This document shows, in pieces, positions 3,967 through 6,975 of a stretch of 6,975 bases of DNA. The notes below the pieces were generated by a model, which saw only the letters and a list, made by a program, of their open reading frames with translations, made no database searches and was not told the origin of the DNA. Where the stretch lies: contig JAQGNA010000457.1 of assembly GCA_028292075.1 (NCBI GenBank), positions 1 through 6,975 on the forward strand. The letters are read 5' to 3'. This DNA is from Rhodoferax sp. Its GTDB lineage: Bacteria; Pseudomonadota; Gammaproteobacteria; Burkholderiales; Burkholderiaceae. A program made the position numbers and the translations under genes. Within the stretch, counting starts at the first letter, position 1, and each line of letters opens with the position of its first letter.

Positions 3967-3998
3967 TAAAATGTACAGAACCCTATGTTTTGTACAAA
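3967..3998 (+). promoter_or_regulatory. Toxin-antitoxin promoter with YefM-type TGTACA operator
   Basis: Two TGTACA palindromes occur at 3972-3977 and 3991-3996. The second extends to a 10-bp palindrome, TTTGTACAAA (3989-3998), while the first is limited to the 6-bp core, giving a long and a short site 19 bp apart centre to centre. A TAAAAT box (3967-3972) matches the -10 consensus at five of six bases and abuts the short site; no convincing -35 is present. The E. coli YefM-YoeB operator is known to consist of a long and a short palindrome with TGTACA cores, there about 12 bp apart. The last base of the long site is the A of the antitoxin ATG, so binding should block the promoter. Autoregulation is inferred. 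Confidence 0.72.
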
Positions 3999-4252
3999 TG
4001 CACATCCTTCCCTTGAGTGAATTCCGCGCGAATGCGTCTGCCATGCTCGACCTGGTGGAACGCGGCGAGACCGTGCGCATTTTGCGCCATGGCAAACCTG
4101 TTGCCGAACTGGTGCCCATTGCACCCGACACGGCTGAGCGACAGCCCAGCTGGAAGCGAGCCGTCACACCGCTGAAGGTCGACCGCCCCGATGGGATGAG
4201 CCTGGCCCAGTTGATCGTCGCCGAGCGTGACCAGGCGAGACTGCAGCCATGA
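3998..4252 (+). CDS. Phd/YefM family antitoxin
   Basis: An 84-residue protein starting MHILPLSEFRANASAMLDLV, followed by ERGETVRILRHGKPVAELVP. This is the N-terminal DNA-binding fold of Phd/YefM antitoxins, where the protein dimerises and binds its own operator. Arg10 falls at the position that YefM uses for operator contact, which supports the ATG at 3998. An upstream ATG at 3971 would add nine residues that lie within the operator. The C-terminal part (about 45-84) is polar and charged, as expected for the disordered toxin-neutralising segment. No Shine-Dalgarno is visible, and with a start site near 3978 the leader would be only about 20 nt. The stop overlaps the toxin start by 4 nt (ATGA), so the pair is translationally coupled. 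Confidence 0.92.
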   Translation: MHILPLSEFRANASAMLDLVERGETVRILRHGKPVAELVPIAPDTAERQPSWKRAVTPLKVDRPDGMSLAQLIVAERDQARLQP

Positions 4253-4668
4253 TTTTGCTGTTCGACACCTCGGCGCTGGTGAAGCGCTACCGGGAGGAGG
4301 GCGGCAGCCAGCGCGTGCAGCATCTGCTTGGCCAGGCGCGCCAGGTGGTCATGGCGGCCCACGGCAAGACCGAATTGGCGTCCGGCCTGTGTCGCGACTG
4401 GCGCCAGCAGCGCACCACCCGAGATGAATACGAACGCGACATGGCCCAACTCGCCGACGATTTTGCCGACTTCGAGGTCGTGCCGCTGGACGCACGCATC
4501 GAGGCGCTGGCCCTGGCCGCCATGGAAGGCCACAACCTCCAAACCATGGACGCGCTACACATCGGCACCGCGCAGGCGGCCCAGGTCGACTTGTTCGTTA
4601 CCGCCGATCCGCGGCAGGCTCAAGCCGCGCAGTCGGTGGGGCTCAAAACCGAATTGATCCAAGCGTAG
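4249..4668 (+). CDS. vapC: PIN-domain toxin, VapC family
   Basis: A 139-residue protein with the four acidic positions of a PIN ribonuclease: Asp6 (LFDTSALVKRY), Glu42 (KTELAS), Asp101 (TMDALHIGTA) and Asp120 (VTADPRQAQAA). In PIN toxins these bind Mg2+ or Mn2+, and studied VapC toxins cut RNA, in several cases tRNA anticodon loops or 23S rRNA. Its target here cannot be predicted. All catalytic residues and the normal length are present, so it looks intact. It forms an operon with the Phd/YefM-type antitoxin, which should bind and inhibit it. The pairing mixes a YefM-type antitoxin with a PIN rather than a RelE-type toxin, a combination known from other genomes. Its stop is only 6 nt before the mnmG start. 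Confidence 0.93.
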   Translation: MILLFDTSALVKRYREEGGSQRVQHLLGQARQVVMAAHGKTELASGLCRDWRQQRTTRDEYERDMAQLADDFADFEVVPLDARIEALALAAMEGHNLQTMDALHIGTAQAAQVDLFVTADPRQAQAAQSVGLKTELIQA

Positions 4669-4674
4669 AAACGT

Positions 4675-6666
4675 ATGAACTATCCCGAAATTTTTGACGT
4701 GATCGTGGTGGGCGGCGGCCATGCCGGCACCGAGGCCGCACTGGCCGCGGCCCGGATGGGCAGCAAGACCTTGCTGCTGACCCACAACATCGAGACCTTG
4801 GGTCAGATGAGCTGCAACCCTTCCATCGGAGGCATTGGCAAGGGCCACCTGGTCAAGGAGGTGGACGCGATGGGCGGCGCCATGGCGCTCGCCACCGACG
4901 AAGCCGGCATCCAGTTCCGCATTCTCAATTCGAGCAAGGGGCCCGCGGTGAGGGCAACCCGTGCGCAGGCTGACCGCGTGTTGTACAAGGCGGCGATCCG
5001 CCGCATGCTGGAGAACCAGCCGAACCTGTGGCTGTTCCAGCAGGCGGTCGATGACCTGATGGTGGAGGGCGATCGCGTGGTGGGCGCGGTAACCCAGGTC
5101 GGCATCCGGTTCCGCAGCCGCAGCGTCGTGCTCACGGCCGGCACTTTTCTCGACGGCAAGATCCACGTCGGCCTGAACAACTATGCCGCCGGCCGGGCGG
5201 GCGACCCACCTGCTGTGTCGCTCAGTGCGCGCCTGAAGGAGTTGAAGCTGCCGCAAGGGCGGCTCAAGACGGGCACCCCTCCGCGGATCGACGGCCGCAG
5301 CATCGACTTCAGCCGCCTTACGCCCCAGCCGGGCGATGGCATGCCCGGCGGCATGGGCAGCAAGGTACCGGTGTTCAGTTTCATGGGCAAGCGCGCCATG
5401 CACCCTGCGCAGGTCCCTTGCTGGGTGACCCACACCAACGAGCGCACCCACGAGATCATCCGCTCGGGATTCGATCGCAGCCCCATGTTTACCGGCAAGA
5501 TCGAGGGCGTCGGGCCGCGCTATTGCCCGAGCGTGGAAGACAAGGTCAACCGGTTTGCCGACAAGGACAGCCACCAGATCTTTCTCGAGCCGGAAGGGTT
5601 GACGACGCATGAGTTCTACCCCAACGGTATTTCGACCAGCCTGCCTTTCGATGTGCAGTACGACCTCGTGCGTTCGATGGTCGGGCTGGAAAACGCCCAT
5701 ATCCTTCGTCCGGGTTATGCCATCGAGTACGACTACTTCGATCCGCGGGGTTTGAAGAGCAACTTTGAGACGCGTGCGATTGCCGGATTGTTCTTTGCTG
5801 GTCAGATCAATGGGACCACTGGCTACGAGGAGGCTGCGGCCCAGGGGATGTTTGCCGGCATCAATGCTGCGCTGCAGTGCCGGGGCGAAGCGCCATGGTT
5901 GCCAGGGCGTGACGAGGCGTACCTTGGCGTGCTGGTCGACGACCTCATTACCAAGGGCGTCACTGAGCCGTACCGCATGTTTACCAGCCGGGCGGAATTC
6001 CGGTTGCAGCTGCGGGAGGACAACGCGGACATGCGGCTGACGGAAGCAGGGCGTCGTATGGGTTTGGTGAACGATGCGCGGTGGGAAGCGTTCAGCCGCA
6101 AGCGCGACGCTGTTTCACGTGAAACAGAACGCCTGAGGTCGCTCTGGATCAGTCCGAAGAACTTGGCTGCCGCCGAGTCAGAGCGAGTGCTGGGCAAGCC
6201 GATCGAGCATGAGTACAGCCTTGCCGAGTTGTTGCGCAGGCCGGACGTTACCTACGCGAGTCTGATGTCGCTGGACAACGGGCGGTTCCGCGATCCGTCC
6301 CTGCCAGTGACTGCGCTCCACGCCGATGCCGATGTTTCACGTGAAACAGACGAGGCAGTTTTTGTCGATTCGGTCGTGGAGCAGGTCGACATCGCCGCCA
6401 AGTATTCGGGCTACATCGACCGGCAGAAAGACGAGATCGAACGTGCCGCCCATTACGAGAGCATGCGGATTCCCGCCGAGATGGACTATTTGCAGGTGAC
6501 CGCCTTGAGCTTCGAGGTTCGCCAACGCCTGAGCAAGTTGCGTCCTGAAACGCTGGGCCAGGCATCCCGTGTGTCTGGCGTCACGCCCGCAGCCATTTCT
6601 CTCTTGTTGGTGCACTTGAAGAAGCAGGGCTGGAAAGACCGCAAGGCTGAAAAGGAACCCGCATGA
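4675..6666 (+). CDS. mnmG: tRNA uridine-5-carboxymethylaminomethyl(34) synthesis enzyme MnmG
   Basis: A 663-residue cytoplasmic flavoprotein that works with MnmE to add the (carboxymethyl)aminomethyl group to the wobble uridine of certain tRNAs. The Rossmann FAD site is [12 protein letters not shown] (about 11-22). [16 protein letters not shown] contains Cys47, and [11 protein letters not shown] contains Cys284, corresponding to the two cysteines important in E. coli (47 and 277). [13 protein letters not shown] (379-391) is a further family signature, and the C-terminal helical domain (about 560-655) ends in [19 protein letters not shown]. It is about 34 residues longer than E. coli MnmG. Two parS sites lie inside (codons 480-484 and 554-558). 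The ATG has no clear Shine-Dalgarno and follows the toxin stop by 6 nt, suggesting co-transcription. It overlaps rsmG by 4 nt. Confidence 0.98.
6111..6126. other. parS: parS centromere site 1 (ParB binding)
   Basis: TGTTTCACGTGAAACA is a perfect 16-bp palindrome identical to the classical bacterial chromosomal parS. ParB loads here, spreads on neighbouring DNA and, with ParA, moves the origin region. It lies within mnmG and is read as Val480-Ser-Arg-Glu-Thr484. Its presence fits the usual location of parS and parAB near mnmG-rsmG and oriC. Confidence 0.95.
6333..6348. other. parS: parS centromere site 2 (ParB binding)
   Basis: A second perfect TGTTTCACGTGAAACA, 222 bp (74 codons) from the first and in the same codon phase, so it is again read as VSRET (residues 554-558 of MnmG). 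Two exact 16-bp matches so close together cannot reasonably be chance. They form a small parS cluster that should nucleate one ParB complex. Confidence 0.95.
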
Positions 6667-6975
6667 CCGGCGGTGCGATCGATGCAACAAATCTTCAAGC
6701 GGTTGCGGATGGCATGGGCATTGCGCTAAGTGCAGGCCAGCAAACTCAACTGCTCCAATACCTCGGGCTGATCCAGAAATGGAACAAGGTTTACAACCTG
6801 ACTGCGCTGCGCGATCCAGTGGAGATGTTCACGCACCACCTCCTGGACAGCCTCGCGGCGGTGCCGCCTTTGCGGATGCACCTGAAGCAGTCCGGGGCCT
6901 CGAGTGCGGCGTCGCTGCTTGATGTCGGTTCAGGCGCCGGTCTCCCGGGGGTCGTGTTTGCAGTTTGCTGCCCGG
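6663..6975 (+). CDS. rsmG: 16S rRNA (guanine(527)-N7)-methyltransferase RsmG, N-terminal part
   Basis: The first 104 codons of a gene cut by the right edge. The product uses S-adenosylmethionine to methylate N7 of G527 in 16S rRNA; loss of this methyl group is known to give low-level streptomycin resistance. The N-terminal helices include [20 protein letters not shown] (33-52) and the conserved [13 protein letters not shown] (58-70). The methyltransferase motif I begins at [16 protein letters not shown] (85-100). The ATG overlaps the mnmG stop (ATGA), and AAGGAA at 6652-6657 serves as ribosome binding site, so the two are translationally coupled. In many bacteria parA and parB come next, which would match the parS sites upstream, but they lie outside the window. 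Confidence 0.97.

Follow-up and report, generated by a model that had tools for sequence, protein, structure and literature searches.

The question raised by this locus is whether two copies of a 16-bp palindrome lying inside the mnmG (gidA) gene are kept for the peptide that they encode or for the DNA itself. The window, i.e., the whole stretch of 6975 bases analysed here, carries mnmG at 4675..6666 on the forward strand; the 663-aa product was assigned by Pfam (GIDA 3.3e-166, GIDA_C_1st, SAM_GIDA_C) and by solved GidA/MnmG structures. The two TGTTTCACGTGAAACA palindromes, parS site 1 at 6111..6126 and parS site 2 at 6333..6348, can be read on both strands. They were found in a search of the window that allowed up to three mismatches, and no third match was obtained at that threshold. 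The mean expected by chance was 0.01, and none of 200 dinucleotide shuffles gave two or more matches. Both copies fit TGTTNCACGTGAAACA, the 16-bp palindromic consensus quoted in the available text of PMC4409726.

The earlier note had described these as two perfect parS sites sharing one codon phase and read as VSRET, and both parts of this description hold: the matches are exact, the shuffles exclude chance, and the sites begin 1436 and 1658 bases past the A of the mnmG ATG, each at codon position 3. The encoded (x)VSRET corresponds to residues 480-484 and 554-558 of MnmG. Of the three phases in which the palindrome can be read, one gives a stop (CFT*), another gives FHVK and the third VSRET. 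Downstream, the window stops 309 bases past the mnmG stop codon, and the rsmG (gidB) gene (6663..6975, forward strand; Pfam GidB) is represented by its 5′ part, cut by the window edge before the column at which relatives carry a third site (see below). Directly 5′ of mnmG, at 3998-4668, lies a Phd/YefM antitoxin and PIN-domain toxin pair (Pfam). A tblastn search of the 210 other loci found relatives of each in 16, and the best matches are likewise placed just upstream of mnmG.

Two sets of relatives were compared. The first consists of 80 named loci (the best 80 of 590), which are Betaproteobacteria, largely Burkholderiales, where their titles name an organism. The second comprises 130 loci taken from genomes in the family of one named locus, Curvibacter lanceolatus. 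Together with the window this gives 211 sequences and 207 distinct mnmG genes, and because these genes share kinship the counts over them are not independent. The window MnmG is ~87% identical to its nearest relatives. Parsimony on a quick tree requires at least 20 changes for site 1, 37 for site 2 and 17 for the rsmG site. One contig titled Methylobacillus (L032) encodes VSRET at both MnmG sites like the Comamonadaceae loci and may be mis-binned.

Codon constraint at the two mnmG sites

The aligned column of site 1 is present in all 207 mnmG genes. The 16-mer is exact in 98 of them, with one mismatch in 40, two in 17 and three in 1, while at the far end five mismatches were counted in 1 gene and 7 to 12 in 50. 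The inner 14 bases, GTTTCACGTGAAAC, are exact in 155 of the 207 genes, which therefore vary at positions 1 and 16 only. A single remnant has three mismatches, one of them within the core.

The simplest alternative is that MnmG needs the VSRET peptide and that the palindrome is a by-product of it. This finds some support in the invariance of E483 among 28 aligned MnmGs and in the position of site 1 within a predicted helix, which in the AlphaFold model is locally confident (467-489); over its whole length the model is of low confidence (mean pLDDT 60.6), and local features alone were used. The codons speak against it. When rows were picked by the peptide instead of the DNA core, to avoid circularity, 155 of the 156 genes with VSRET at the site 1 column were found to encode it with GTTTCACGTGAAAC. 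Across these 156 genes the median codon variability was 1.08 bits over 458 conserved degenerate columns, whereas among the 284 conserved columns with at least fourfold degeneracy the lowest variability, 0.056 bits, belongs to V480, S481 and R482, followed at 0.36 by the next column. Moreover, 50 of the 51 genes with at least five mismatches at site 1 lack VSRET and one retains it; therefore, where the DNA site is absent, the peptide is almost always absent too. VAREL takes the place of VSRET in related MnmGs. One outgroup MnmG has VSRET elsewhere, encoded by unrelated codons. Conservation at the protein level alone was rejected on the frozen synonymous codons and on this outgroup, and together with the loop position of site 2 (see below) they make a peptide requirement extremely improbable. 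The proposal that coding and centromere function share the same bases is thus supported, the codons being frozen far beyond what the peptide needs. Elsewhere in mnmG, the Asp codon 289 (5539-5541) is also invariant in the 156 genes though two codons are possible.

A second mnmG site downstream of the first, with up to two core mismatches, was found in 117 of the 207 genes, the counterparts being chosen by DNA similarity. Every one of the 117 is in the phase that reads VSRET, the two alternative phases being unused. With rows chosen by peptide, VSRET outside site 1 is encoded by the exact core in 107 of 108 cases. The ten core changes observed at site 2 fall at position 5 (three), position 12 (four) and positions 4, 9 and 15 (one each). 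The seven changes at positions 5 and 12 alter the amino acid, yet these are internal positions that ParBc1, the ParB of Burkholderia cenocepacia chromosome 1, tolerates according to the available text of PMC5450999; the other three are at positions that, by the same text, it does not tolerate.

Site 2 lies in a loop of variable length. The loop P523-E569, whose ends are invariant, has a median length of 38 residues in carriers of site 2 versus 32 in the others (p 1.5e-11, uncorrected for kinship), and 45 residues in the window. In the AlphaFold model the site closes a low-confidence segment (546-558). Its location in this loop also speaks against a peptide requirement. The commonest spacing between the two sites is 189 bp (66 of 117); it was set aside as a meaningful signal, as common descent can explain it.

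A third coding site and the ParAB machinery in relatives

In the relatives a further site is present in the neighbouring gene. FHVE occurs at one RsmG column in 130 of 193 relatives' genes, and all 130 encode it with GTTYCACGTGGAAC. These sites are of the TGTTTCACGTGGAACA type, lie in the later part of the gene and are read in a phase differing from that of the mnmG sites. The G at position 12 follows from the selection of rows by Glu in FHVE, while a synonymous C at position 5 is found in 13 of the 130. A is seen at position 12 in one phase-1 rsmG site only, and five rsmG sites were counted as phase 2. Of the 63 remaining genes, 55 differ from the core at five or more positions and 1 at three, and 7 are gapped at the column. 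The 13 rsmG sites with C at position 5 thus combine the two transitions, at 5 and at 12. In the available text of PMC5450999 the double change at 5 and 12 is not a natural one, yet a symmetrical double mutant was still bound.

The earlier note expected parAB just beyond the right edge of the window, and synteny in the relatives supports this. The 69 loci that extend 8 kb or more downstream all contain parA, and 68 of them contain parB; the exception, with no ParB match in ~10 kb downstream, is L068 (Mitsuaria sp. WAJ17), in which parA follows mnmG. With at least 4.4 kb downstream (166 loci), parA was found in 162 and parB in 138, four loci having neither, and the total for parA over the full set of 211 sequences is 183; the shortfall is partly due to short flanks. 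The four loci without a parA or parB match within ~4.4 kb downstream are L157, L166, L183 and L200, where the flank may be too short. ParA-type ATPases were identified by Pfam in three loci and ParB in four.

A ParB without the parS-recognition residues was the outcome that the earlier note had named as speaking against its claim. Equivalents of R173 and G201, the marks of parS rather than NBS binding, are present in all 125 relatives' ParBs whose length allowed the comparison. In the available text of PMC7383237, R173 and G201 are the parS-recognition residues, and Lys171 is present in both its ParB and Noc; Arg occupies the equivalent position in 121 of the 125 relatives' ParBs.

These observations bear on a second alternative, namely that a regulator other than ParB binds the palindrome. 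A palindrome by itself does not identify its protein, but this one is exactly the canonical parS, parAB adjoins it in relatives, and the changes occur mostly where ParBc1 binding, as measured in the available text of PMC5450999, tolerates them. The relatives' ParBs also have parS-type and not Noc-type residues. We consider another regulator very improbable.

The proximity to the origin claimed for the window holds loosely in relatives: the dnaA–mnmG distance is 28-224 kb in 14 of 14 relatives (median ~85 kb), measured for two genomes across the contig end on the assumption of a closed circle.

Distribution of sites across genomes

It was proposed in the earlier note that parS sites be counted genome-wide, and this was done in relatives. 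Ten genomes were searched at up to one mismatch. In nine of them 2-4 sites were found, which share a single contig and lie close to mnmG, within ~5 kb; Janthinobacterium sp. CG3 has none genome-wide at this threshold. At least one GTTYCACGTGRAAC is present in 147 of 150 family genomes (median 3), and the reversed-sequence control gave 0-2 matches per genome. In the 130 genomes with a fetched mnmG locus, 345 of 396 sites are in that locus. Coding genes hold 300 of the 396, 191 in mnmG and 109 in rsmG. A site in mnmG is present in 126 of the 130 genomes and absent in four. Some of the sites counted beyond the locus may in fact lie close to it, because the fetched flanks are short (~1.5 kb in 30 loci). 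More than two sites beyond the fetched locus were counted in three of the 130 genomes. Two genomes, G048 and G061 (loci L137 and L144), have 12 and 9 parS-like sites genome-wide versus the median of 3.

The 207 mnmG genes fall into four states: both sites in 91 (counting the site 1 remnant), site 1 only in 65, site 2 only in 26 and neither in 25. In 20 of the 25 genes with neither, a parS-like site is located up to 1.3 kb upstream of mnmG. These 20 include 12 of the 13 loci of Oxalobacteraceae genera, Gallionella and Methylotenera. A tendency to retain at least one mnmG site was not significant (Fisher p 0.09), and tree-based pairs gave it no clear support.

A third alternative is that the palindromes are relics of former parS sites, now unused, with other sites doing the work. 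Upstream sites with up to one core mismatch do occur in relatives (96 in the 207 loci), and 46 loci combine an mnmG site with another up to 1.3 kb upstream. Relics would decay, yet the mismatch distribution at site 1 is almost without intermediates. In 73 of the 130 genomes, furthermore, every site found is within mnmG or rsmG, in one of them within mnmG entirely. We regard disuse as exceedingly unlikely.

Beyond the family, 40 of 148 matching genomes of the broader class were examined, and their mnmG genes gave 0 sites at up to one core mismatch; a ParA match lies nearby in 26 of these loci and a ParB match in 20. Since no class mnmG among the 40 has a site, the coding parS in mnmG looks, on sequence comparison, derived within Burkholderiales.

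Proposed role and comparison with known systems

From sequence comparison we conclude with high confidence that the palindromes are true centromere sites for ParB, located within genes and under selection at the level of the DNA. For this organism we infer ParB binding and spreading, a function in segregation and parAB itself. The two palindromes would act as chromosomal parS, serving as binding and CTP-loading sites for a ParB expected just downstream, and would belong to an origin-region centromere segregated by ParA. Selection on the DNA for ParB binding would fix the codons, and the fixed codons would in turn fix VSRET in mnmG and, in relatives, FHVE in rsmG.

A wider reading, which we offer tentatively, is that across a large Burkholderiales group the main chromosomal centromere, formerly upstream of mnmG, has been relocated into the mnmG and rsmG frames. 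From within them it would dictate two VSRET peptides, one of which lies in a lengthened loop, and also FHVE, by way of an internal variant accepted by ParB. A centromere that dictates amino acids in this manner would thereby drive protein evolution, and ParB occupancy may couple the expression of tRNA/rRNA modification genes to origin segregation.

The locus is a clean natural example of two codes written in one set of bases. Synonymous variation is frozen out at the bases that ParB would need, and several amino-acid-changing differences are found where ParB tolerates them. The mnmG and rsmG columns may be read as a natural record of ParB binding tolerance. The same record cautions against synonymous recoding or codon optimisation of mnmG and rsmG in such bacteria. 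The influence proposed here, of a centromere on an unrelated enzyme, can be tested directly.

In Bacillus subtilis an origin-proximal coding gene, spo0J, also contains a parS; there the host gene is parB itself. Within the available text of the sources, parS sites in coding genes are already known from Pseudomonas aeruginosa and from gidB of Thermus thermophilus. In P. aeruginosa, 9 of the 10 sites parS1-10 were predicted in coding sequences and were mutated without changing the coded residues (PMC4368675); the available main text of that paper has no gidA and does not treat conservation of coding positions across a family. In T. thermophilus the single chromosomal parS (parSc) resides in the 16S rRNA methyltransferase gene gidB, immediately upstream of parA, according to the available text of PMC4409726; that case differs in belonging to another phylum and in having one site. 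A search of the literature at the level of titles and abstract openings found neither parS in mnmG nor the conserved frame-locked mnmG/rsmG arrangement; the likeliest prior art (Passot 2012, Livny 2007, Dubarry 2006) was outside its coverage.

Another close system is ParABSc1 of Burkholderia cenocepacia chromosome 1, which uses the same 16-bp palindrome and is tolerant at positions 1/16 and 5/12 (available text of PMC5450999, whose main text has no gidA). The B. cepacia locus L059 has an mnmG site at +1418 with one mismatch, and loci titled Burkholderia have no second mnmG site, unlike the window. In kind, the sites are ordinary chromosomal parS, and this is well supported; what is unusual is that they are fixed in the frames of two adjacent genes throughout a large group of bacteria.
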